Assembly (NCBI GenBank): GCA_003244145.1
Contig: QHBM01000041.1
Location: 1 to 33,938, forward strand
Length of the DNA stretch: 33,938 bases
Reading direction: 5' to 3'
Origin: Chthoniobacterales bacterium
GTDB taxonomy: Bacteria > Verrucomicrobiota > Verrucomicrobiia > Chthoniobacterales > UBA10450
The notes under the pieces were generated by a model that saw only the letters and a program-made list of their open reading frames with translations, did no database searches and was not told the DNA's origin. A program made the position numbers and the translations under genes. Positions 17,525 to 30,173 of the stretch are shown in pieces (the stretch's first letter is position 1; each line of letters starts with the position of its first letter).

Positions 17525-17911
17525 TTACCGAAGCCGGTTCACCGCCCACGAAACCGGCACTCGCACTCGGACGAACACACCCGGCTTGAATCGCCAGGTC
17601 AGGAATGTTTTGCGCGCAGCTTGGTCGAGCACCGGACTGCCACTGCTCTTTACGATTGCGACGCCCGTGGTCTTGCCGGACTTGTCTATTTGAAGTTCAT
17701 AAACGCCGCTGCCCGTGAGTTTCAACCGCTGAGCCTCTTCGGGATACCCCGGTCCCGGCGACGAGATCGCATAGCGCATCAATTCCTCGTCGGCGAGCGC
17801 GGACGTATGACCATCGCTCCAAACCGCGGTTGTCTTTTCGGCGGCGAGCGCGGCGAACGGACAGAGCGTTACTGCGATCGCGACGATCAGGCAAAATCGC
17901 AGAGCGAACAT
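17525..17911 (-). CDS. Small secreted protein with TonB C-terminal domain
   Basis: A 128-residue protein with a signal peptide (MFALRFCLIVAIAVTLCPFA, then ALAAE) and one TonB_C domain: GYPEEAQRLKLTGSGVYELQ, then IDKSGKTTGVAIVKSSGSPV and FLTWRFKPG. It lacks the proline-rich span and membrane anchor of true TonB, so it is a stand-alone periplasmic TonB-like domain. ATG at 17911 is chosen because it starts the signal peptide directly; an upstream ATG at 17941 adds ten polar residues. It is cotranscribed with the nucleoside hydrolase; the functional link is unknown. Confidence 0.82.
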   Translation of the reverse strand: MFALRFCLIVAIAVTLCPFAALAAEKTTAVWSDGHTSALADEELMRYAISSPGPGYPEEAQRLKLTGSGVYELQIDKSGKTTGVAIVKSSGSPVLDQAARKTFLTWRFKPGVFVRVRVPVSWAVNRLR

Positions 17912-17979
17912 GCCTTCAATGGTATGTGCGCGCACGGTCATTGCAACTCGGAGGTGGCGACGTTTCCCGAAGTTACCCG

Positions 17980-18008
17980 TTGCAAATCGCGAGGTGGCAT
18001 CCGAAAAT
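17980..18008 (+). promoter_or_regulatory. Candidate promoter of tRNA-Ala
   Basis: TTGCAA (17980-17985), a 17-base spacer and GAAAAT (18003-18008) each match four of six consensus positions. The predicted start lies about six bases before the mature tRNA 5' end at 18021. The stretch 17941-17961 is an imperfect copy of 17980-18001. Confidence 0.4.
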
Positions 18009-18020
18009 CAAGATTCTTCC

Positions 18021-18093
18021 GGGGTCTTAGCTCAGTTGGTAGAGCACCGCAATGGCATTGCGGGGGTCAGGGGTTCGAATCCCCTAGGCTCCA
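18021..18093 (+). tRNA. tRNA-Ala (anticodon GGC)
   Basis: A 73-base cloverleaf folds completely by hand. The acceptor is GGGGTCT / AGGCTCC with the G3-U70 wobble pair that identifies alanine. The D arm is GCTC/GAGC. The anticodon stem CCGCA/TGCGG holds loop ATGGCAT with anticodon GGC. The T arm is AGGGG-TTCGAAT-CCCCT and the discriminator is A. CCA is not encoded. Its 3' end (18069-18097) recurs at 25556-25584. Confidence 0.97.
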
Positions 18094-18097
18094 GGCC
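18069..18097 (+). repeat. Left attachment-site-like direct repeat (inside tRNA-Ala 3' end)
   Basis: Bases 18081-18097 (CCCCTAGGCTCCAGGCC) recur exactly at 25568-25584. Including the T-arm 5' strand AGGGG and the loop, 25 of 29 positions match. The copy here completes an intact tRNA, as expected for the attL side of an element integrated at a tRNA 3' end. Confidence 0.75.
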
Positions 18098-18169
18098 CTA
18101 CGGGCGGCTAACCCTGAAAGCGGTAGCTCGAGTTCTCTTGCGACGGTGAAGTGGCCCTGAGCTGCTAAA

Positions 18170-20929
18170 CTATCTCAACGCCGCATCGCAATTCGCAATG
18201 TCCCGCGCGACTTCGTCCGGCTTGTCGACCTCAACGCGACTAAGCGTTCCTTTGCTTTTCAGGTTTCGCCAGATGTCGAAGCTTTTGTGATACCAATTTT
18301 TCGCTTCGTGCCAGCGCTCCTCTTGCTGGATGACGAAGGTTCCTGGTTTGCTTGCCAACATCGCGCTGTATTTGCCGAGTTGAAGATAAGAGAGTGCCAA
18401 GATGGTACTGGCGCCGTTGTTATCAGGGCCGATTGCGACAAGCGCTTCTCCGATTCTGACCGCTTCAAGAGCCTTTTCAATCGACCCAGGGATGTCGCCG
18501 ATGTTGGACAAGAATGTACTGAATTTCAGACAAGTTTGAGCCTGCTGGTAACTAACAAAAGCATTCATCGGATCTTTGGCGGACAGTTCCTGAAAAATTT
18601 GCAAAGCCTTCTCGAAATTCGCGCGCGCCCCGGCAGGATCATCGTTCTTGGCGAGTGAAGTGGCGAGAACGCAGTATCCAACGGCAGAATCCCTATGAAC
18701 GTACGCGTCGGCTGGATCGGTGGCGACTAGTGCTTCCCAAATAACAACGGCTTTGCGGCAATACTCAAGAGCTTCCTTCAAATCATTGCTCGCAATTAAC
18801 GCGTCGCCGATGTTTCCATATTGCACGGCGAGTTGACGCCGGTAGAGAGTGTTCACGGGATTTTCTTTCACCAAGTCTTCGTCGAGAGCTAATGCTTTTC
18901 GGTTGCTCGCCAAAGACTCTGCTTGATTGCCGTCTGCTGCTTGCACCTGAGCAATGTTGCTGTAGTCCGCGCCCAACACTTGCCGAAATGTCGGCGTTGC
19001 TGGATTTTCGGCGGCCAACGCCTCATTCCCATCGATCGCTTTCTGAAGATTCTCCAAAGCGTCGCGCGTATCGCCAAGGTTTGGGATGGTTGGCACGCCC
19101 ATGACGCGGCCAATCGCGAAATAAACGCTGTAGAACTTTGTTCGCATGGACTTGCTTGATGCATCGGCCGCAAGCAATTTCTCGGCAATCGGTAACGCGC
19201 TGCGGTAATAGTCAATGGCCTCGCGCGGCTTACCCAGCGTGACGCTGAGCTCGCCGAGTCGTACTATATTCGTTGCGTAATCCTCCTGAATATCCCTGTT
19301 GGACGGTTCCAGTTTTGCCAATCTTTCCCTCACCCCTAGCGCTTTTCGCAAACTCTCCAGCGCTCCCTGGGTGTCACCAAGATTCGAAAATGTTAAGGTG
19401 CCACCGCTTCGAGAAATCATGTTGACTCCCTGGATCTCGCCGATTCGCTGATAAGCGCTTCCGATCTCGCGTAGTAGAGAACGGTCGTTACTCGCCTCAT
19501 GAGCTAAACTATCCAGATATTTGAGAGAATCGTTTACCAGCCTCTGGCGCACTTTGGTCGATCCGGGAAGACTGGCTATCTCGTCGTGATAATCGAACAT
19601 CAATGCGTGGGCCAGCTTCCGCACCTCGTTGAACCGCCGCTCGGCCTTTGCCTTTTCAAGGCGTGCTTGATGTGCTTCCCATGCGGTGGTGATGCTACCA
19701 GCGATCAGTGCGAGCGCGACGAGCATTGCAGCGGAAACGCCGAGTTTGTGACGCTGGATGAACTTTGAGGCGCGATACGCCGATGTGACCTTGCGTGCGC
19801 GGACCGGCAAGCCTTCAAGGCGTCGGCGAATGTCTTCCGAGAATTGATCGACAGACGTATAACGGCGCTGCGGCTCCTTGCGTAGCGCCTTCAAGACAAT
19901 GTTATCCAAGTCGCCACGCAATTGTCGTCGGATTTTCTCAGCTCCGTCAGTCCGCTCAATATCGCGCGTGATTGCCGTGCTAGGTCGCTCTGGTTCTTGC
20001 TCGCAGATGGCCTTACTAATCTCATCTGCGCTGCGGCGCTTGAGCTTGTAAGGTCGCTCGTTTGTGAGTAGCTCATAAAGAAATACCCCCAGCGAGTAAA
20101 CATCGCTTACGGTGGTGACTGCTTCGCCCTTCACTTGCTCCGGGCTGGCGTACTCCGGCGTCATCACGCGCTGAATCGTGATAGTTACACTTTGCTGTTC
20201 GGAATCAGCTTCCTGAAGAAGTTTGGCAATGCCAAAGTCAAGCAGTCTTACTTCACCCTCCTTGGTTACAAGCACGTTACTTGGCTTGATGTCGCGATGG
20301 ATCACGAGATTCTGGTGGGCATAGCTTACTGCCCCACAAACCACTCGAAACAATTTCAGCCGCTCCGCGACCGATAATTCGTGTTCCCGAGCGAACTGAG
20401 TGATCGGTACTCCATCGACATATTCCATGACAAAGTAAGGCAAGCCGTCGTCGCTTGTCCCTCCATCGAGCAGTCGTGCGATGTTTGGATGATCCAATCG
20501 CGCCAGAATCTGCCGTTCCGCGTTAAACCGGCGAAGAATCTCGTCGGTGTCGGTGCCGCGCTTCAGGATTTTGATCGCGACTTGTTTTTCAAATACGCCG
20601 TCGGCCCGCTGCGCGAGATAAACCGCGCCCATTCCCCCGCGTCCCAGCTCACGCACGATCGCATAGGCGCCGAGGCGGAGGCCCGGAGCTAACGTGGATA
20701 TCTCGCGCCGCACCGACTCAGGGGCGTTCTGCGCGAAAGTTTCGAGCGAGCCGGTGGTTTGTTCGAGAAGCGATTCGACTTCGCGCAAAAGCTCCGCGTC
20801 CCTACCGCAACGATCCGCGACGAGAGCAGCGCGCGCCGTCGATGATTTTTCTTCAAGCGCGTCGCCCACAATGGCCTTGGCTTGCTGCCAGCGCTCAGCG
20901 GTGAGCTGCTCTGTCTTCTGCGATTTCAA
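18170..20929 (-). CDS. Transmembrane Ser/Thr protein kinase with C-terminal TPR-like repeats
   Basis: A 919-residue Hanks-type kinase. Residues ~85-370 form the kinase domain: glycine loop ELGRGGMGAVY (94-104), ATP Lys K120 in VAIKIL, catalytic HRDIKPSNV (211-219), DFG (231-233), and TPEYASPEQ in the activation segment. All catalytic residues are present. One membrane helix follows (~397-416, GVSAAMLVALALIAGS). About 500 residues of TPR-like helical repeats then extend, presumably to the periplasm, with recurring NLGDTxxALExLxKA and YxxxAVxYxxIGDALxA patterns. The start is TTG at 20929, immediately after the sigma factor stop and in the same frame. ECF sigma/kinase pairs of this kind are known in Planctomycetes, Acidobacteria and Verrucomicrobia; the signal sensed is unknown. 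Confidence 0.93.
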   Translation of the reverse strand: MKSQKTEQLTAERWQQAKAIVGDALEEKSSTARAALVADRCGRDAELLREVESLLEQTTGSLETFAQNAPESVRREISTLAPGLRLGAYAIVRELGRGGMGAVYLAQRADGVFEKQVAIKILKRGTDTDEILRRFNAERQILARLDHPNIARLLDGGTSDDGLPYFVMEYVDGVPITQFAREHELSVAERLKLFRVVCGAVSYAHQNLVIHRDIKPSNVLVTKEGEVRLLDFGIAKLLQEADSEQQSVTITIQRVMTPEYASPEQVKGEAVTTVSDVYSLGVFLYELLTNERPYKLKRRSADEISKAICEQEPERPSTAITRDIERTDGAEKIRRQLRGDLDNIVLKALRKEPQRRYTSVDQFSEDIRRRLEGLPVRARKVTSAYRASKFIQRHKLGVSAAMLVALALIAGSITTAWEAHQARLEKAKAERRFNEVRKLAHALMFDYHDEIASLPGSTKVRQRLVNDSLKYLDSLAHEASNDRSLLREIGSAYQRIGEIQGVNMISRSGGTLTFSNLGDTQGALESLRKALGVRERLAKLEPSNRDIQEDYATNIVRLGELSVTLGKPREAIDYYRSALPIAEKLLAADASSKSMRTKFYSVYFAIGRVMGVPTIPNLGDTRDALENLQKAIDGNEALAAENPATPTFRQVLGADYSNIAQVQAADGNQAESLASNRKALALDEDLVKENPVNTLYRRQLAVQYGNIGDALIASNDLKEALEYCRKAVVIWEALVATDPADAYVHRDSAVGYCVLATSLAKNDDPAGARANFEKALQIFQELSAKDPMNAFVSYQQAQTCLKFSTFLSNIGDIPGSIEKALEAVRIGEALVAIGPDNNGASTILALSYLQLGKYSAMLASKPGTFVIQQEERWHEAKNWYHKSFDIWRNLKSKGTLSRVEVDKPDEVARDIANCDAALR

Positions 20930-21517
20930 TTACTCAGCGGATCGTGATAGCTCTCGTTGCAGCCAGCGTTTGGCAATTGCCCATTCGCGACTGACGGTTG
21001 CAGGAGAAATTGACAGAGCTTCGGCGATCTCATCGATGGTTAATCCGCCAAAAAAGCGCATCTCGACGACCTTGGCTTGGGTCGGGTCGAGTTGCTCGAG
21101 GTTGCGCAACGCCTCATCAACTTCAAGCAGATTGATTTCCTGGTGGCTGTAGATTTCAAGATCGTCATCGAGAGTGATTCGGACCGCGTCTTTGCCACCG
21201 CGTTTTGCGGCGAAGCGGGCGCTGGCGTGATCGATCAAAATGCGCCGCATCATGCGAGCGAAGACGCCAAGCAAATGAGCGCGATTTTGCCAGGTCGATT
21301 GCCGTTGGTCTGCCAAGCGGAGATAAGCTTCGTGCACGAGCGCGGTGGGCTGGAGCGTGTGGTCCGGCCGTTCGTCATGCATGAATCCGGCCGCCACGCG
21401 GCGTAATTCATCGTAAACAGCCGGCAACATCCTGCGCAGTGTCACCGCGTCGGCTTCAGACATCGTCGATGTCAGATCATCGATGAGCGCCGGGGTGAGA
21501 ATTGAGGGCGCTGCCAT
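20930..21517 (-). CDS. ECF-type RNA polymerase sigma factor (kinase-associated subfamily)
   Basis: A 195-residue sigma factor. Region 2 is around residues 25-95 (YDELRRVAAGFM, LQPTALVHEAYLRL, FARMMRRILIDHA) and region 4 around 135-190 (EQLDPTQAKVVEMRFFGGLT, IDEIAEALSISPATVSREWA). The TALVHEAYLRL phrase is typical of the ECF subfamily found upstream of Ser/Thr kinases in soil phyla. No anti-sigma factor is nearby; control by the adjacent kinase, perhaps through phosphorylation, is a reasonable inference. It reads divergently from the secreted repeat protein, with 108 bases between their start codons. Confidence 0.92.
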   Translation of the reverse strand: MAAPSILTPALIDDLTSTMSEADAVTLRRMLPAVYDELRRVAAGFMHDERPDHTLQPTALVHEAYLRLADQRQSTWQNRAHLLGVFARMMRRILIDHASARFAAKRGGKDAVRITLDDDLEIYSHQEINLLEVDEALRNLEQLDPTQAKVVEMRFFGGLTIDEIAEALSISPATVSREWAIAKRWLQRELSRSAE

Positions 21518-21625
21518 TCCAGGATTTTACGCCTTTTCAAAGAAGCCGTCGAGCACGAAAGGTTTCTCAAGTTTTCTGAGGAGTTTCATCCGCTTTTGCC
21601 GCGTTGGTCAGTAAAGCCCAATATT

Positions 21626-24600
21626 ATGAAGCTCAAATCCTCCTCGTTATCAGTTCTCTGTTCGACACTCAGCGCGCTACTCGTCACCACGAGCATTTCG
21701 GCTGCCGGCGGAGCGACAGTAACGCTCTACAATACCGGAGTAAATAATGCTGGAGTTGCCCTGCCCGCCCTCTCTTCCGATCCGCATTGGACGGTCGTCA
21801 CGCCGAGCGGGCAAGGGCCCGGACCCTTTGTGAACAATTTCGGCGGATGGATCGCACCGCCGGCATCGGCGAACTGGATTTCGCCATTTACCAATCAGTT
21901 CGCCGATGGCCCAGAGGGAAATTACGTTTATTCGACGACGTTCAATGTGGCTAATGCCGACCTCGGAAATGTGACGATCACCGGTCAGGTCGCGGTCGAC
22001 AATATCGGCAGCATCCAGTTAAACGGCTCTTCGAATGGAATTACACTTTCGGACCAGCCTAACTTCGCGCATTACGCCACATTCACCATTAGTCCCACGG
22101 CGAACTTTGTGGCGGGCCCGAACACGTTCAGCGCGCTAGTCACAAATACCGCGGGCAGTGGCGCCAATCCCACTGGCGCGATTGTGGTGTTTACATCGGG
22201 TGTCAACACCAACAGTCCACCGCCGCATGGCGGCCTCTCGGCCACTATTTTCACGGTCAACGGTAGCTCCTCGCCAAGCAGTAACGTAGCTGACACGGTC
22301 CTGCGTTTCGCGGCGCAACAGAGCGGCACGCCGGCCGACTTGATCGTGCGTGTGCAGGCGACAACTACACCTGGCACTGAGAGCAGTTGGGCAGACCTAA
22401 CGAATGGAAACAACGGACGAATGACACTGGACCCAGCGGCGTTCCAATTTGTCCTTAACTCCAGCGACTACCCTTTGCAGAACGGCGTTTCCTTCCGCGC
22501 CATCTCCACTGCGTCGGGTTATCCAGACAGCATCTCGAATGTGGTCGGGCCGTTCAACCTCATCAGTGCTAAGTCTCATCTGGGCACAACGGCATTGTCT
22601 ATCACGGCTAACGGGACTATCGCCGATCTCTACTTTCGAGCTACCGAATCCACAGTCCCGGCCGGTATTTCCGTGCGCATCCAATCGACGACCACGCCGG
22701 CAGACCAAGCGAGCTGGGCTGATCTAAATGACGGCAACTCCGGGTATATGCAACAGAGCACCAACCCGAATCAGTTCCTTCTCCTGCTAAACAAGTACCC
22801 GGCCGGCCAGGGCCTTTATTTCCGGGCCGTCGCCAGTCTTTCCGGCTTCGTGGACAGCATCTCCAATCCGAGCGGACCCTTCAACCTGGTAGCCGACACG
22901 CCTCCTGTGGTGACGGTTCAACCGCCGACTGGGTTGGCTGGCAGCGGCGACGGGCACGATCTCGATCACCCCATCCTGGTGCAAGAAGGGTTTTTCACTT
23001 TCGGAGCTAGCGCCCAGAGCGACCGATCCATCAAGAGTCTCGCGCTGCAAATGGACGGTGAAACTCTCCGTAGTTTCCTAAATGGTGAGACAAATGGATC
23101 AGTAGTTACGATAAACGTCATTGGCGATCACGTCCTGGAGGCGATCGCGGTGGACGATCTAGGCGCTACCGCAAGGGCAGGGACTGGTGCCATCTACCTC
23201 CGTGTTATTCCAGCAAACAGCGCTCTTAAAGCAGAACGCGCAGGATCGGACAGAAGCGCTGCGGCTCAATCATCGCCCAAAGTTTACAATGCCGTCAGCG
23301 ATGGCTCATGGACTGATCCAACCACGTGGATAGATCAACATGGCAACAACGGTGTGCCGACAGCGGACGACTTCGTTACTATCGGCTCACATACGATATA
23401 CTTTGCCGGCATCAATGATGCCTTTGCTAAGTCCCTCACAATAAGTGGCGGGAAGTTATTCGCCCTTGATGGGGTCCTTCTTCACATCTCTGGCGAACTG
23501 ACCATCAATGCGTGTACAGTCGTCGCGAACCTGGCCTTCGTGGTTGAGAACGGTGCTTTTTGTAATTTCCTGAACGCCTCAGACATCCAGTTCACGTCCG
23601 ATTCCGACCCTCACAACCAGGGAACGGGATTCATAGTTAACAAAGGCACCCTGAATATTCACGGGAGCGGGGGCGTCCTTGGGGCAAGCCAGCTTGTCAA
23701 TCTTGGTACGATCAACTGGCTCCCGCCATTGCAGATTCCTCCGAATGCAGCAGTAGATCCCGCTGCCGCCGTCCGCCTAATCGATGCGATCTCAGTGTCA
23801 AACTTCGGGCTGACAACAGGGATTACCAGCTCACTCCTTACTAGTGACGGCGCGAGCCTTATTACAAGCGACGGCGCGAGCGTCATTTCGCAAGGAGGCG
23901 GTAATGTTATCTCACAGGGTGGTGGCAACGTTATATCTCAAGGAGGTGGCAACGTTATATCACAGGGTGGTGGAAACATCCTCTCCCACGATGGCGCCAC
24001 TGTTATCGCAACGGGTGGCGGAAACCTGATCGGCATAAAGGGGGGCAGCGCTGCCGGAGCCACTAGCGCGCACGCGGCGACAGCTCCCTCGGGTTACATC
24101 CAAACTGGCGGTGAGACGAATCTGACTTCGTTCAATATCGTCGGCCCGGTGACTCTCAATGGCGGCGTGCTGACCGGCTCTGGTCTTATTCAAGGCGACC
24201 TGACGAACAACGGCGGTTACATTTCCCCTGGCCATTCCCCGGGGCTCCTCGGTGTAACCGGCAATTTCACGCAGGGTGCGAACGGCACATTGGTGCTTGA
24301 GAAGGGCGGTAAATTCCCATCGCAGTTCGATCAGCTGCAAGTCGGTGGCGCGGCGAATCTGGGTGGCAAGCTCGATCTCAAAATGATCAACGGCTACACT
24401 CCGGACGCGGCGGATACATTCAGCCCGCTTGCTTATCGCTCCGCGAGCGGCTCCTTTTCGTCCGTCAGCTCGAACGCACAGGTCACAGTGAATGCAACAG
24501 GTTTGCTGACCACTGTTAATCCCAATGTGGCCTCACCTAAGAGCGGCCAACCGCTCAACATCGCAACGCGACTCGCCATTCAAAGCGGAGACAACGTGCT

Positions 24601-25309
24601 CATTGCCGGCTTCATCGTCACTGGACCAAGCGGTTCGACCAAGAAGGTGCTGATTCGCGGCCTGGGTCCCTCTCTCGCCGGCCTTGGCGTGCCGGGCACG
24701 ATTTCAGATCCTCTGCTCGAGTTGCATAACCCGGATGGGAGTGTTGTCATCAACGATAACTGGCAGCAAGGCGATACCAGCCAAATACCGGCCGGCTTCG
24801 CGCCGAGTGATCCGCGAGAGTCAGTCGTTGTGGCCACCCTCGGGCCGGGGAATTACACCGCCATCTTGAAAGGTGCTCACGGAGAGACCGGCGTAGGTCT
24901 CGCAGAGGTTTATGATCTCGATTCCGCGTCAGCAGCGCAGTTGGGCAACATCGCCACGCGCGGCTTTGTCAATACCGGCGACAACGTCTTGATCGGTGGT
25001 TTTATTATCGGCGGCACGGAACCGGCGAAAGTGGTCGTGCGCGCGATCGCTCCCTCGCTCGCCTCCATCTTGCCCGGCGTATTAAAGGCGACCACCTTAG
25101 AATTGCATGACGCTAACGGCAGCGTGATCAGCAACGAAGGCTGGCGCAATACCCAGGAGAGCGAAATCCTCGCGACGCAGCTTCAACCAGCCAACGATAA
25201 CGAAGCCGCGATCCTCGCCACACTCGTGCCGGGTAATTACACGGCTATAGTGCGCGGAAAAGACGACACGACGGGCATCGCGGTGGTGGAAGCTTATAAT
25301 TTGCAGTAG
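21626..25309 (+). CDS. Large modular secreted/surface protein with tandem octapeptide repeats
   Basis: A 1227-residue protein starting at ATG 21626 with a signal peptide (LSVLCSTLSALLVTTSISAA). Modules are: N-terminal beta-rich domain to ~195; two ~105-residue direct repeats (~198-311, ~317-422), each ending in a GPFNL motif; an Ig-like stretch (~423-540); a beta-helix-like region from ~555 (DGSWTDPTTWIDQHG onwards, as in G8-like or pectate-lyase-like folds); eight octapeptide repeats at 737-800; an autotransporter-like segment (GLIQGDLTNNGGYISPGHSP at ~847-866, then LDLKM); and two ~120-residue C-terminal copies of a GDNVLIGGFI...KVVVRAIAPSL module ending near 1097 and 1227. I recall the last module from many verrucomicrobial exported proteins. 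No membrane anchor, LPXTG or PEP-CTERM motif is visible. A surface adhesion or matrix role is inferred. Confidence 0.85.
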   Translation: MKLKSSSLSVLCSTLSALLVTTSISAAGGATVTLYNTGVNNAGVALPALSSDPHWTVVTPSGQGPGPFVNNFGGWIAPPASANWISPFTNQFADGPEGNYVYSTTFNVANADLGNVTITGQVAVDNIGSIQLNGSSNGITLSDQPNFAHYATFTISPTANFVAGPNTFSALVTNTAGSGANPTGAIVVFTSGVNTNSPPPHGGLSATIFTVNGSSSPSSNVADTVLRFAAQQSGTPADLIVRVQATTTPGTESSWADLTNGNNGRMTLDPAAFQFVLNSSDYPLQNGVSFRAISTASGYPDSISNVVGPFNLISAKSHLGTTALSITANGTIADLYFRATESTVPAGISVRIQSTTTPADQASWADLNDGNSGYMQQSTNPNQFLLLLNKYPAGQGLYFRAVASLSGFVDSISNPSGPFNLVADTPPVVTVQPPTGLAGSGDGHDLDHPILVQEGFFTFGASAQSDRSIKSLALQMDGETLRSFLNGETNGSVVTINVIGDHVLEAIAVDDLGATARAGTGAIYLRVIPANSALKAERAGSDRSAAAQSSPKVYNAVSDGSWTDPTTWIDQHGNNGVPTADDFVTIGSHTIYFAGINDAFAKSLTISGGKLFALDGVLLHISGELTINACTVVANLAFVVENGAFCNFLNASDIQFTSDSDPHNQGTGFIVNKGTLNIHGSGGVLGASQLVNLGTINWLPPLQIPPNAAVDPAAAVRLIDAISVSNFGLTTGITSSLLTSDGASLITSDGASVISQGGGNVISQGGGNVISQGGGNVISQGGGNILSHDGATVIATGGGNLIGIKGGSAAGATSAHAATAPSGYIQTGGETNLTSFNIVGPVTLNGGVLTGSGLIQGDLTNNGGYISPGHSPGLLGVTGNFTQGANGTLVLEKGGKFPSQFDQLQVGGAANLGGKLDLKMINGYTPDAADTFSPLAYRSASGSFSSVSSNAQVTVNATGLLTTVNPNVASPKSGQPLNIATRLAIQSGDNVLIAGFIVTGPSGSTKKVLIRGLGPSLAGLGVPGTISDPLLELHNPDGSVVINDNWQQGDTSQIPAGFAPSDPRESVVVATLGPGNYTAILKGAHGETGVGLAEVYDLDSASAAQLGNIATRGFVNTGDNVLIGGFIIGGTEPAKVVVRAIAPSLASILPGVLKATTLELHDANGSVISNEGWRNTQESEILATQLQPANDNEAAILATLVPGNYTAIVRGKDDTTGIAVVEAYNLQ
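23834..24025 (+). repeat. 24-bp minisatellite encoding eight octapeptides
   Basis: Eight in-frame 24-base units inside the secreted protein gene encode LLTSDGAS, LITSDGAS, four consecutive VISQGGGN, ILSHDGAT and VIATGGGN. The central four differ mostly at third codon positions, so the peptide is under constraint while the DNA has drifted. The pattern, hydrophobic pair then Ser/Thr then a turn of Gly/Asp/Asn, fits a narrow beta-solenoid or beta-roll. Confidence 0.92.
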
Positions 25310-25346
25310 GGAGGGGCGGCGACGTGCCGAATCCAGCGTAAACGGC

Positions 25347-25363
25347 GGCCCCGAAAAAGGGCC
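25347..25363 (+). terminator. Possible terminator of the secreted protein gene
   Basis: GGCCC and GGGCC arms flank CGAAAAA, 38 bases after the stop, followed by ATTTA. The stem is only 5 bp and the T-run is poor. Confidence 0.25.
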
Positions 25364-25388
25364 ATTTAACAGGATTTCCTGCCAGATA

Positions 25389-25550
25389 ACAAAAGGTGCC
25401 GGAGGGGGATCCGACTTGGAGAAGTCAACGTTTCGCGAGCTCGTTTCTTCGACAAATTAGGCGAATCACAAAAGAGTGCCGGAAGGGGATCCGACCCTAG
25501 AGAAATCAGCACTTTCGGAGCGGTTTTCTTGGCCAAATTAGGCGAATATC
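25389..25550. repeat. Two tandem imperfect repeats of 79 and 83 bases
   Basis: Unit 1 (25389-25467) and unit 2 (25468-25550) share the start ACAAAAG, then GTGCCGG, GGGGATCCGAC, and the end CAAATTAGGCGAAT. A third ACAAAAGGGG starts at 25551 and runs into the tRNA-Ala 3'-end copy. The reverse complement of each unit start (GGATCCCC...CCGGCAC) looks like the 3' end of a leucine-type tRNA, so the units may be old attachment-site scars or integrase arm sites. Confidence 0.75.
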
Positions 25551-25555
25551 ACAAA

Positions 25556-25584
25556 AGGGGAACGGAACCCCTAGGCTCCAGGCC
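25556..25584 (+). repeat. Right attachment-site-like copy of the tRNA-Ala 3' end
   Basis: AGGGG, a 7-base loop, then CCCCTAGGCTCCAGGCC. The last 17 bases are identical to 18081-18097; the loop differs at 4 of 7 positions (AACGGAA versus TTCGAAT). There is no other tRNA sequence upstream of it, so it is a 3'-end fragment, as expected at attR. Confidence 0.75.
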
Positions 25585-25651
25585 TTCGCTATTGCGCCGT
25601 AAACCATGTGTGCTGGTCAGGCACTGCCGCGCTCGCTAAGATTAAAGAGTT

Positions 25652-28558
25652 ATGATTGGAAAATCGCGATTACTGATTTCGTTTCTTTTCCTCGCGTTCG
25701 TCGCGCCTGCATTCGCCGACGAAGCCGCTCAGGAATCGCGCTTTCTCACCAATACGCGGCAATTGATCTTTGAAGGGCGCCGAAGTGGCGAAGGTTATTT
25801 CTCGCCCGATGGGGGCAAGATCATTTTCCAGAGCGAGCGCGAAGAGGGAAATCCGTTTTATCAGATTTACGCCGTCGATCTGAACAGCGGCGACACCACG
25901 CGCATCTCGCCCGGAACAGGCAAGACGACCTGCGCGTTTTTCCAGCCGGGCAGCGATCGCGTGCTCTTCGCTTCGACCCACGCTGATCCGGACGCGCGCG
26001 CGAAACAAAAAGCCGAGCTGGATTTTCGCGCCAGCGGCAAGCAACGCCGCTACTCGTGGGATTACGATGAGGCGTTCGACATCTATTCGGTCCGGCAAGA
26101 TGGGAGCGACCCGGTCAACCTCACTCATTCGCCCGGCTACGATGCCGAGGGATCATTCTCGCCGGATGGCAACCAGATCGTTTTCTGTTCGCTTCGCGCC
26201 GCTTTTCCGCTCGAAAAACTTTCGCCGGAATTACGCGCCGCCTACGACAAGGATCCCTCGTTCTTCGGCGATATCTACCTGATGAACGCGGATGGCTCGA
26301 ATGTGCGCCGCCTTACCGACGCGCCCGGTTACGACGGCGGCCCCTTTTTCTCGCCGGATGGTCAGCGAATCATTTGGCGGCACTTCGAAGAAAACGGAAT
26401 GATCGCCGATGTCTGGACGATGAAGCTGGACGGCTCCGACAAGCAGCGCCTCACCGATTTCAAATCGATGTCCTGGGCGCCGTTTCTTCACCCAAGCGGC
26501 AAGTATGTCATCTTCACCTCGAACAAACTCGGGTTCGAAAACTTCGAACTCTTCCTGGTCGACGCTCAGGGCGAACGCGAACCGGTGCGCGTGACTTTCA
26601 CGCCCGGCTTCGATGGTTTGCCGGTGTTTTCTCCCGACGGGAAAAAGCTTTGCTGGACCTCGGGGCGCACGAGCGACGGGAAATCGCAGCTCTTCCTCGC
26701 TGATTGGAATGACGAAGCGGCGCGGGCGGCGTTGGCCGCAGCACCGAAACGATCGAAAGCGACGAGCGGAAACGCGAATTTCGCGCCGGAGATTACCGAC
26801 GCCGATCTGCGACGCGAAGTGGAATGGCTGGCCGATCCGGCCCGCGACGGACGAATGACAGGCACGCCGGGCGCGCAGGCCTCCGCGAGTTGGCTCGCCG
26901 AATATTTTCGGCAGAACGGACTGCAATCGTTCACCGAGAATTTTTCGATGCCGTTCCAGTTCAACGCCGGCGAAAAAGTTCTGCCCGAGAAAAGGCGCCT
27001 TGAGATCGCGACCGGCGATTCGAAATCACAAAGCGTGACGGCGAAGCTCGATCAGGATTTCCGGCCGCTGCCGTTTAGCCAGGCCGGCGAAGCGAGCGGC
27101 GAAGTGGTGTTTGCCGGCTACGGGCTCGTCGCGCCCGGCGATGCCGGCGTGCGCTACGATTCCTATGCGGGGCTCAATGTGAAAGACAAAGTCGTTCTCA
27201 TCCTTCGCTACGTCCCGGAGAAGGTGGAGCCGGCGCGGCGCGCGCAACTCAATCGTTACGCCGGGCTGCGCTATAAGGCGATGCTGGCGCGGGAGCGCGG
27301 CGCGAAAGCTGTGCTCATCGTCACAGGACCGAACTCGCCGAATGCCGGCGAACTCGTTCCGTTGACCAACGACTTCAGCAACGCAGAGAGCGGCGTCGTT
27401 TCCGCATCGATCAGTGGGAAAATGGTGGACGCGCTCCTCGCGCCGGGCGGAAAAAATCTGAAGGAATTGCAAAGCGCGCTCGACAATGAAAACCCGCACG
27501 CGGAAACCGGCTTCACTCTGCCGAAAGCGAAAGTGACGCTCGCCTGCGCCGTCGAGCATTTGAAAAAAAGCGATTCCGATATCGTCGGCTATCTTCCGCC
27601 CGCGCAAAAATCGGCGAGTGCTGAATACGTTGTCGTCGGCGCGCATTACGATCATCTCGGCCACGGTGGCACCAGCTCGCTCGACCGGTCGGGGGAGGAA
27701 AACAAAATTCATCCGGGCGCCGACGATAACGCATCGGGCACGGCGTGGGTCATGGAGCTGGCCGCGTCGCTCGCGAAAGAGCGCGCCGAACATCCAGAGA
27801 AATTCCGGCGCGGCGTGATCTTCGCCTGCTGGTCGGGCGAAGAGATTGGGATCATCGGGTCGGCCGCGTTCTGCGAGCACCCGCCCGTTCCGCTCGATAA
27901 GATTGTCGCTTACGTCAACGCCGACATGATCGGCCGCATGCGCGAGAACAAGCTCACGCTCCAGGGAGTCGGCTCGTCACATGCCTGGCGGCGCCTGATC
28001 GAAAAGCGAAATGTCAGTGCTGGATTCAACCTCTCGCTCCAGGACGATCCGTATCTTCCGACGGACGTGACCAGTTTCTACACCAGGAATGTTCCGGTCT
28101 TGAATCTGTTCACTGGCGCTCACGACGATTATCACCGGCCGACCGATACCGCCGACAAACTCAACTACAAGGACCTCGAACGGATCACGAAGTTCTCGCG
28201 TGAGATCGTTCTCGATCTGGCCCAAGCCGCCGAGCGTCCCGATCTCGCGAAGGTGGAAAGAAGCAGTCAGGGCAGCAGCGCGCGCGAGACCTTGCGCAGT
28301 TATCTCGGCACGATCCCGGATTACACCACCGAAGTGAAAGGTGTGAAACTAAGCGGCGTACGCGGCGACAGTCCCGCGGAAAAGGGCGGCCTCAAAGGCG
28401 GCGATGTGATCGTGGAATTGGGCGGCCAGAAAATTACGAACATCTACGATTACACCTACGCGCTCGATGCCGCGAAAATCGGCGAGCCCACTCGCATCAT
28501 CGTGGAACGCGACAGCCAGCGCGTTATGCTCACCGTTACGCCCGAAGCGCGAAAGTAA
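25652..28558 (+). CDS. Secreted TolB-like beta-propeller / M28 zinc peptidase / PDZ protein
   Basis: A 968-residue exported protein (signal LLISFLFLAFVAPAFADE). Residues ~40-370 hold repeated PD40 blades (GEGYFSPDGGKIIFQSE, EGSFSPDGNQIVF, GGPFFSPDGQRIIW, LPVFSPDGKKLCW). A PA-like region follows (~485-640). The M28 catalytic domain retains the co-catalytic zinc site: H665 and D667 in HYDHLG, D691/D692 in GADDNASG, E730/E731 in SGEEIG, D758 in NADMIGR and H828 in DDYHRPTDT. A C-terminal PDZ domain (~890-960, GVRGDSPAEKGGLKGGDVIV) completes it. It is an active aminopeptidase by motif, probably periplasmic. Fusion of propeller, M28 and PDZ suggests substrate capture and delivery. It begins 67 bases after the island boundary. 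Confidence 0.93.
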   Translation: MIGKSRLLISFLFLAFVAPAFADEAAQESRFLTNTRQLIFEGRRSGEGYFSPDGGKIIFQSEREEGNPFYQIYAVDLNSGDTTRISPGTGKTTCAFFQPGSDRVLFASTHADPDARAKQKAELDFRASGKQRRYSWDYDEAFDIYSVRQDGSDPVNLTHSPGYDAEGSFSPDGNQIVFCSLRAAFPLEKLSPELRAAYDKDPSFFGDIYLMNADGSNVRRLTDAPGYDGGPFFSPDGQRIIWRHFEENGMIADVWTMKLDGSDKQRLTDFKSMSWAPFLHPSGKYVIFTSNKLGFENFELFLVDAQGEREPVRVTFTPGFDGLPVFSPDGKKLCWTSGRTSDGKSQLFLADWNDEAARAALAAAPKRSKATSGNANFAPEITDADLRREVEWLADPARDGRMTGTPGAQASASWLAEYFRQNGLQSFTENFSMPFQFNAGEKVLPEKRRLEIATGDSKSQSVTAKLDQDFRPLPFSQAGEASGEVVFAGYGLVAPGDAGVRYDSYAGLNVKDKVVLILRYVPEKVEPARRAQLNRYAGLRYKAMLARERGAKAVLIVTGPNSPNAGELVPLTNDFSNAESGVVSASISGKMVDALLAPGGKNLKELQSALDNENPHAETGFTLPKAKVTLACAVEHLKKSDSDIVGYLPPAQKSASAEYVVVGAHYDHLGHGGTSSLDRSGEENKIHPGADDNASGTAWVMELAASLAKERAEHPEKFRRGVIFACWSGEEIGIIGSAAFCEHPPVPLDKIVAYVNADMIGRMRENKLTLQGVGSSHAWRRLIEKRNVSAGFNLSLQDDPYLPTDVTSFYTRNVPVLNLFTGAHDDYHRPTDTADKLNYKDLERITKFSREIVLDLAQAAERPDLAKVERSSQGSSARETLRSYLGTIPDYTTEVKGVKLSGVRGDSPAEKGGLKGGDVIVELGGQKITNIYDYTYALDAAKIGEPTRIIVERDSQRVMLTVTPEARK

Positions 28559-29126: not shown

Positions 29127-30173
29127 ATGAACATTTGCTTCACCGAAACCGAAACCGAATCGCAGGAGTTTCTGGCGCGGCATCTCAGCGATCACAAACT
29201 CAGTTTTGTCTCCGATCTGGAAAGCGTCCCGCCGGAGGTCGAAGTTCTTTCGATCTTCATTAATACGCGGATCGACCGCGCCCTTCTCGCGGCCCATCCG
29301 CGGCTCCGCTTCATCGCGACTCGGTCGACGGGACTGGACCACATCGATCTGGAAGCGTGTGCGGAGCGGCAGGTCACGGTGAGCTTTGTTCCCAATTACG
29401 GGGAGAACACGGTCGCGGAGCATACCTTCGCGCTGCTCCTGGCGGTCTCGCGCCGGCTGCGGCAGGCGATGAGCGCAAAACGCGACGGCAAATTTTCGTT
29501 CGAGGAATTGCGCGGCTTCGATCTGAAAGGAAAGACGATCGGCGTAGTCGGCGCGGGACGCATCGGGCTGCACGTCATTCGCATTGCCAAGGCCTTCGGC
29601 ATGGAAGTAATCGCGACCGACATCAGCCGAACCGACACGCTTTCCGAAGTGCTCGGCTTCGAATATGTTTCGTTCGACGAACTTTTGGAGCGCAGCGACA
29701 TCATCTCTCTCCATGTTCCGCTCACGCCGGTGACGGTTCATTTGCTGAATCGCGAGACATTCGCGAAATGCCGGCGCGGCATCGTCGTCATCAATACTTC
29801 GCGCGGCGGTCTCATCGAGACCGACGCGCTCCTGGAGGCGCTCCGCTCTGGGGCTGTCATCGGCGCCGGTCTCGATGTCCTTGAAGACGAGCGATTGTTT
29901 CGGTCCCAGGCTCCGCGGCTGATGACCGAGGAAATCGTCAAGCACCTCCAGCAAATTTCGTCGCCCGAAGAACTACACTTGCGTCATCCGGAACGGCTGG
30001 CCGAGATTCAGCAGCTTAGTGCGAACGAAGCCCTGCTCGCGCAACCCAACGTAATCTTCACCCCGCACATCGCGTTCAACAGCGTGGAGGCCGTGGAGCG
30101 GATCAACCAAGTGACAGTGGAAAACATTCTCGCGTTCGCTCGGGGCGAGCCGGTGAACGTGGTCCCGCTGTAG
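29127..30173 (+). CDS. D-isomer-specific 2-hydroxyacid dehydrogenase (D-lactate dehydrogenase-like)
   Basis: A 348-residue NAD-dependent dehydrogenase. The Rossmann motif is GVVGAGRIGLHV near residue 140, and the catalytic triad is R226 (NTSRGG), E255 (LEDE) and H314 (TPHIAFNS). Between E255 and H314 an extra helical stretch of ~40 residues (TEEIVKHLQQISSPEELHLR onwards) is present, which I associate with D-lactate-type rather than phosphoglycerate-type members. It reduces a 2-keto acid such as pyruvate to the D-hydroxy acid. It is 50 bases after hicA and convergent with the DUF4256 relic. Confidence 0.9.
   Translation: MNICFTETETESQEFLARHLSDHKLSFVSDLESVPPEVEVLSIFINTRIDRALLAAHPRLRFIATRSTGLDHIDLEACAERQVTVSFVPNYGENTVAEHTFALLLAVSRRLRQAMSAKRDGKFSFEELRGFDLKGKTIGVVGAGRIGLHVIRIAKAFGMEVIATDISRTDTLSEVLGFEYVSFDELLERSDIISLHVPLTPVTVHLLNRETFAKCRRGIVVINTSRGGLIETDALLEALRSGAVIGAGLDVLEDERLFRSQAPRLMTEEIVKHLQQISSPEELHLRHPERLAEIQQLSANEALLAQPNVIFTPHIAFNSVEAVERINQVTVENILAFARGEPVNVVPL

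Follow-up and report, generated by a model that had tools for sequence, protein, structure and literature searches.

What has placed a protein kinase, a sigma factor and a giant secreted protein between a tRNA gene and a second copy of that tRNA's 3′ end? The question is raised by a 33,938-nt stretch of DNA from a Chthoniobacterales bacterium (GenBank assembly GCA_003244145.1, contig QHBM01000041.1), referred to here as the window, which is the complete contig C146 of a 3.63-Mb draft genome (G000; 173 contigs, 88% complete). We compared it with seven congeners (G001 to G007) and with further relatives. It is probable, with real room for doubt, that positions 18094-25580 are a cargo-only cassette inserted at the 3′ end of tRNA-Ala(GGC), in which the three genes travel as a signalling and display unit.

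A displaced tRNA 3′ end and the element that carries it

The tRNA-Ala(GGC) gene (18021..18093, + strand; ARAGORN and Rfam RF00005) is intact and forms the target side of the segment. The left copy of the repeat (18069..18097) comprises the T-arm and the acceptor 3′ end plus GGCC, and the right copy lies at 25556..25584, also on the + strand; in a pairwise match, the two are equal at 25 of 29 bases and identical over the final 17. The duplication about 7.5 kb downstream, proposed in an earlier sequence-only reading, is confirmed, and the 17-mer is not a common dispersed repeat in its own genome: an exact search of the whole draft found two copies of CCCCTAGGCTCCAGGCC, both at this locus, and up to three mismatches added two further places, compared with four for the reversed control pattern. 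tRNA islands are recognized by this configuration, in which one end has an intact tRNA gene and the other a direct repeat of that gene's 3′ end. Outside tRNA genes, the 13-mer CCCCTAGGCTCCA, equal to the tRNA-Ala 3′ end, was found in no more than 4 of the 24 genomes counted, with one such copy in G000, four in G001, 13 in G004 and five in G007; its reversed control was absent from all 24, and the two copies in G028 both fall inside tRNA-Ala matches.

The repeat is real, but its right copy does not stand alone: it forms the 3′ end of an element of about 113 bp that is also present in relatives. In the window, this element occupies 25466..25580 on the + strand (model match 25477-25580, E 1.5e-22) and is preceded by a truncated copy of itself at 25391..25474 on the same strand (model positions 5-90). 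A DNA search with 25310-25640 gave matches in five of the eight genomes of the genus (G000, G001, G002, G004 and G007). The aligned copies start near GACAAAAtGGGTCCGGAGGGGGTTCGACCC and end in GACAAAAGGGGAACGGACCCCCTAGGCTCCA, and their final 13 bases are the tRNA-Ala(GGC) 3′ end. A sequence model built from 14 copies matched 8 of 39 relatives and, under stricter filters, 14 of 83 family genomes; copies beyond the genus are weaker, the best (70 bits) being in G016. An exact pattern taken from the 3′ end of the element, which misses variant copies, was scanned against 84,980 species genomes and returned 34 stretches, plus six viral ones. The model matches 18 of these 40 loci, 16 of them in Spartobacteria bacterium palsa_1379, 1395, 1413 and 1414 and the other two weakly (19.4 and 16.4 bits). 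We take the palsa isolates to come from Stordalen Mire. One copy in G002 (L260; G002:C18:1997-2106) ends in CCCCCTCCGGGCC instead of the tRNA-Ala end, through decay or because it had another target. Within 17900-25800, the tRNA was the sole Rfam match at E up to 1, and the element matches no known RNA there. Strong folding of the right-hand region was considered and rejected (DNA z-score 0.18), and a consensus fold of the 14 copies has 16 pairs, one alone with two-sided change.

The same 13-mer and the same 113-bp element recur downstream of the same tRNA gene in G004 and G007, which supports integration at the tRNA. The elements lie on the strand of the tRNA, 7.5 kb from it in the window, 4.6 kb in G004, and 5.6 and 13 kb in G007. 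Where neighbouring repeats lie at most 25 kb apart on one contig, all 12 pairs are co-oriented (partial matches excluded). In both G004 (92% over 150 bp) and G007 (83% over 148 bp), the sequence past the core is alike at the tRNA and at an element, which is what successive insertions with this sequence as their left arm would produce.

Other gene sets take up the corresponding place in relatives. One cassette, made up of a secreted-protein gene and an Lnt-like gene, directly follows the tRNA in G002 and G007, while in G004 the tRNA is followed by a different cassette encoding a tetratricopeptide repeat (TPR) protein and a secreted protein. In G004, the secreted-protein/Lnt-like cassette comes after a tRNA-end repeat with which contig C36 opens, and its Lnt-like gene is cut off by the end of that contig; the end of C32 holds the remainder of an Lnt-like gene, then an element. 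We infer that C36 joins C32 and that, in G002, C22 joins C18. A further Lnt-like gene with an element is present on G004:C40. Genes resembling those of the window occur on two more repeat-bearing contigs: G004:C37 encodes a kinase-like protein and an ECF (extracytoplasmic function) sigma factor whose gene has an in-frame TGA, and G001:C1 has a gene with a 34% match to the kinase domain. In G003, the secreted-protein/Lnt-like pair lies 5′ of tRNA-Ala, opposite to its place in G007 and G002 (L033:674-5854; G003:C30), by inversion or misassembly. In G019, from another genus, the tRNA-Ala 3′ end has two more copies nearby, at most about 210 bp from the tRNA (L037:13790-14035).

The kinase, the sigma factor and the secreted protein

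The first gene behind the tRNA (18170..20929, − strand) encodes a Ser/Thr protein kinase (Pfam PF00069, 2.9e-49) with a single membrane helix, predicted by eye, and a C-terminal TPR region matched by TPR families. It is separated from the tRNA by a short spacer (18098..18169), which reaches the kinase stop codon and would be the left arm of the cassette; homology to other modules begins at 18171. The ECF sigma factor gene (20930..21517, − strand; TIGR02999, 199.8 bits) adjoins it, and across the divergent intergenic region (21518..21625), a candidate shared promoter, the gene for the giant secreted protein runs in the opposite direction (21626..25309, + strand). This protein has a signal peptide, judged by eye, and matched nothing in Pfam or NCBIfam. 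Its open reading frame opens at TTG 21596, but this codon falls in a conserved intergenic block, which makes ATG 21626 the more probable start.

The sequence-only reading held these genes to be a self-contained module, and a search of other loci bears this out. Nine more divergent units of sigma factor and kinase genes facing a secreted-protein gene were found at five places in four genomes: three units on G002:C10, three on G004:C17, and one each on G004:C41, G003:C213 and G000:C115, two of the places being tandem arrays. The kinase gene is present in eight of the nine, and the ninth unit is cut by a contig end. The DNA similarity between these units and the window's module gives out close to where the coding regions end. 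On this comparison, the module is a conserved unit in its own right, of which the window holds the copy that sits at a tRNA.

The kinase probably activates the sigma factor, with Thr58 as one site. This is likely because the motif QPTA, which replaces DAED in sigma region 2.2, is found in all ten sigma factors aligned (the window's and nine others), within the stretch LQPTALVHE. Two published accounts describe the sigma factors EcfK and EcfP, in which region 2.2 lacks the usual acidic motif and has another in its place, and phosphorylation of a Thr activates the protein (PMC13147305, PMC8999054); the ECF43 consensus is QTTA, and its Thr is the phosphorylated residue (PMC13147305). By motif placement, the window's sigma factor is ECF43-like: it is encoded beside a Ser/Thr kinase, lacks DAED and has a Thr at the place of EcfK T51. 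A point against a simple Thr58 switch is that the EcfK T51A mutant is still functional, a linker Thr being sufficient (PMC13147305), so Thr58 need not be the sole switch. In the pathway that we propose, the TPR part of the membrane kinase would sense something at the envelope, and the kinase would phosphorylate the sigma factor at Thr58 of QPTA and perhaps at further sites. The phosphate would supply the negative charge that is missing for RNA polymerase binding, and the sigma factor would then transcribe the divergent giant-secreted-protein gene and possibly its own operon too.

Control of the secreted-protein gene by the sigma factor, which was part of the sequence-only reading, has a conserved block in the divergent intergenic region as its sole basis. 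In the six modules aligned, the conserved blocks are GTCGAG (21548-21553) and TTTGCCGCGT (21595-21604), and the sigma factor may use 21518-21625 as a promoter. The secreted protein would presumably be displayed at the surface.

The C-terminal domain of the secreted protein (24536-25306) is common to many paralogues. It is 95% identical to that of a paralogue in the same genome (L112:8864-9634) and 45-81% identical to the other 17 aligned; the near-identical pair looks like the outcome of gene conversion. In-frame 24-nt repeats at 23838-24024 give the protein a Gly-rich stretch of the NVISQGGG type. A PDB sequence search with the C-terminal domain gave weak matches only (best E 0.0017, a chain named SAKe6FR), and for the sigma factor nothing in the PDB matched at 0.001.

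Insertion at the tRNA and its rivals

In the explanation that we favour, the 3′ end of tRNA-Ala(GGC) would have been the target at which site-specific recombination inserted 18094-25580. The tRNA is left whole at the left boundary, and the right boundary is the 113-bp element, which ends in a copy of the last bases of the tRNA. This element probably contains the binding sites of the recombinase, which may have acted in trans or have since been lost, and the cassette would be able to excise. The sequence from 25581 to 25651 would be the start of the next segment: AGGCCTTCGCT in this stretch is by eye like AGCCTTCGCT after the tRNA of G007, with no match at E 0.001.

An empty site joining 18097 directly to 25585 had been expected in close relatives. 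The module is absent after the tRNA in all seven congeners, although only 0.7-5.6 kb downstream is available in G001, G002, G003 and G004. In the tRNA-Ala loci fetched from 17 relatives, no module lies on the right-hand side of the tRNA (matches of at least 60 bits; several stretches are short), and G016 has a weak kinase match 12.6 kb from the tRNA (64.7 bits). No literal empty site was found, because the right flanks of the tRNA differ among relatives. A chromate transporter gene lies 0.87 kb after the tRNA in G005, with a counterpart 8.3 kb after it in G006; the gene is 23 kb from an element at the start of contig C40 in G004 and on a contig without this tRNA in G000, G001, G002, G003 and G007. 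The window's own right flank is an M28 peptidase gene (25652-28558) present in seven of the eight genomes of the genus. It was considered as a conserved right flank and rejected, since among five loci compared its neighbours are common within G005/G006 and within G001/G002 only; these two pairs differ from each other and from both G007 and the window. Further along, the window has a gene (29127-30173) related to a 2-hydroxyacid dehydrogenase gene that adjoins a secreted-protein homologue in G013 (L117:4774-9205; G013:C87).

Several observations weigh against insertion as we describe it. The join of 18097 to 25585 is not found in any of the 17 tRNA loci, and in none of them does the window's M28 gene adjoin the tRNA; in G013, from another genus, a distinct M28-family open reading frame directly follows tRNA-Ala (L044:5132-6553; 30% over 117 residues). 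Past the common GGCC, the window's sequences after the tRNA and after the element are equal at 17 of 60 bases, and no match to either was found among the other ends of the 54 compared. The model found no copies of the element in three of the eight genomes of the genus (G003, G005 and G006). Two cases depart from the common orientation, namely, a pair 181 kb apart on G004:C40 and a weak partial match (G001:C1:209028-209096) that is opposite to its neighbour. None of the nine further modules has an element within the fetched stretch; the module thus has no need of the element, and it is not specific to the tRNA site. Secreted-protein C-terminal domains do gather near the repeats, with 17 counted at up to 5 kb from a set of 32 sites that includes four tRNAs, compared with 6.3 expected, but the expectation is based on unscored first-look counts and the sites are not independent; 19 of the 32 sites have such a domain within that distance. 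Lastly, no tyrosine recombinase (PF00589) is encoded on the window's contig, and the four in its own genome are on C92, C151, C126 and C71. Pfam searches of the three module genes showed no recombinase, the genome-wide search having covered the tyrosine type only. The absence of a visible integrase noted in the sequence-only reading stands within this scope, and with its flanking att-like repeats and no integration or transfer genes (genome search for tyrosine recombinases; Pfam on the three genes), the segment resembles a cis-mobilizable element (CIME).

A rather unlikely alternative is that the 113-bp element is a small transposable repeat, similar to a miniature inverted-repeat transposable element (MITE) or a repetitive extragenic palindromic (REP) sequence, that derives from a tRNA 3′ end and inserted here by chance, the module being an ordinary resident of a variable region. 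Element copies do occur at many places away from the tRNA, the element ends can pair as an imperfect inverted repeat, and both the element-free modules and the unlike flanks of the window agree with this. It accounts less well for copies on the same strand downstream of the same tRNA in G000, G004 and G007, for the uniform orientation of the 12 neighbouring pairs, for the post-core sequence that tRNA and element have in common in G004 and G007, and for tRNA-end repeats that exist without the element, such as the two in G019. The idea of a stray tRNA fragment at 25556, with the genes brought in by homologous rearrangement with module arrays such as that on G000:C115, is in our view very improbable. 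The near-identical C-terminal domain of a paralogue in the same genome and the duplication of modules elsewhere speak for such exchange; against it, DNA similarity to the other modules ends near the ends of the coding regions and does not extend to the tRNA and element flanks.

Also weighed was an integron-type array, with the cassettes moved by an integron integrase and the 113-bp element serving as a divergent attC site; this appears quite improbable. Integron integrases are present in the window's own genome and in relatives: six of seven recombinases tested scored above the TIGR02249 cut-off, among them one on a different contig of the same genome (L263:5883-6920, G000:C151; 471 bits). G004 has C-terminal remnants of such integrases at two places: on C9 (L244:1333-1575), with a tRNA-Ala 3′-end repeat about 0.2 kb away, and on C32 (L245:14490-14741), with an element about 6.6 kb away. 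A GTTRRRY core lies within 15 bases after 5 of the 34 listed sites. A search for attC sites by simple criteria returned 23 candidates in 1.07 Mb (one in the shuffled control), three of them in the element-bearing loci L245, L250 and L261, but 17 of the 23 are in four integrase loci, such sites lying near integrases of relatives, and the attC-like sites of these genomes differ from the element in appearance. Moreover, no element copy in the stretches scanned has RYYYAAC before it and GTTRRRY after it; a single site has both cores, and this is not an element but the tRNA-end repeat on G004:C9. Without paired cores, the element was rejected as an attC site. At several places, a tRNA-end repeat or a variant of it is followed, at most 60 bases on, by an integron-like core that reads CGTTAGGC or differs from it at one base (L035:10330-10360, L115:6711-6740, L244 near 1127, L248:7209-7240, L283, L288 and L289).

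Insertion of a cargo-only cassette at the tRNA might also be one instance of something wider. These soil Verrucomicrobia could shuffle units of one to a few genes, many of them coding for giant secreted proteins and some also for the kinase-sigma regulators of these, with structured 113-bp ends that mimic the tRNA-Ala end. A recombinase supplied in trans would gather the units serially at the tRNA and elsewhere, and it might be related to the integron integrases whose remnants lie near the two G004 repeats. We regard this extension as unlikely; if true, it would give these bacteria a reserve of surface proteins that can be swapped, some of them accompanied by a sensor switch of their own. The locus suggests a possible means of varying outside display in soil Verrucomicrobia, with sense-and-display units in arrays and, here, at a tRNA with a small cassette end.

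Comparison with known islands and sigma factor systems

The following comparisons draw on parts of the published accounts. The Islander-type islands of tRNA and tmRNA genes likewise have the intact tRNA at one end and a displaced 3′ fragment at the other (PMC4383910); here, in contrast, there is no internal tyrosine integrase, the displaced end is part of a 113-bp element common to the islands, and no empty site was found. Tycheposons are also cargo elements that start at a tRNA, but those described carry a tyrosine recombinase gene, xerD (PMC10872708), and none is present here. A closer parallel is offered by the ssrA islands of Dehalococcoides, which lie in series downstream of one RNA gene and are bounded by 20-bp copies of its 3′ end (PMC3146451). 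Fifteen of them have no integration module, and these cargo-only islands may move by accretion (PMC3146451). Cargo targeted to a tRNA without a visible integrase, which the sequence-only reading took to be new, is therefore known in kind, and the lack of an integrase is not new by itself. In Dehalococcoides, integrase-bearing islands are known, with a serine recombinase, whereas none was identified here; conversely, the 113-bp end element and the secreted-protein cargo were not found in the parts of that account considered (PMC3146451).

The module itself compares best with pairs of ECF43 sigma factors and Hanks-type kinases (EcfK/PknS and EcfP/PknT), in which the sigma factor gene also lies beside that of a membrane Ser/Thr kinase, there is no anti-sigma gene in the unit, and DAED is replaced by a Thr motif, QTTA there and QPTA here (PMC13147305, PMC8999054). 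The likeness is one of motif and kinase gene, as the best model for the sigma factor here is TIGR02999. The targets also differ, being a type VI system or a polymyxin-resistance regulon in the ECF43 systems (PMC13147305, PMC8999054) and probably the giant secreted protein here. In a search of CC-licensed PMC papers by title, no such arrays were named in Verrucomicrobia, which does not imply their absence from print. As far as the searched literature shows, the new parts are the common 113-bp end element, the cargo of secreted proteins and kinase-sigma pairs, the host group, and the integron-integrase remnants near two of the G004 repeats.

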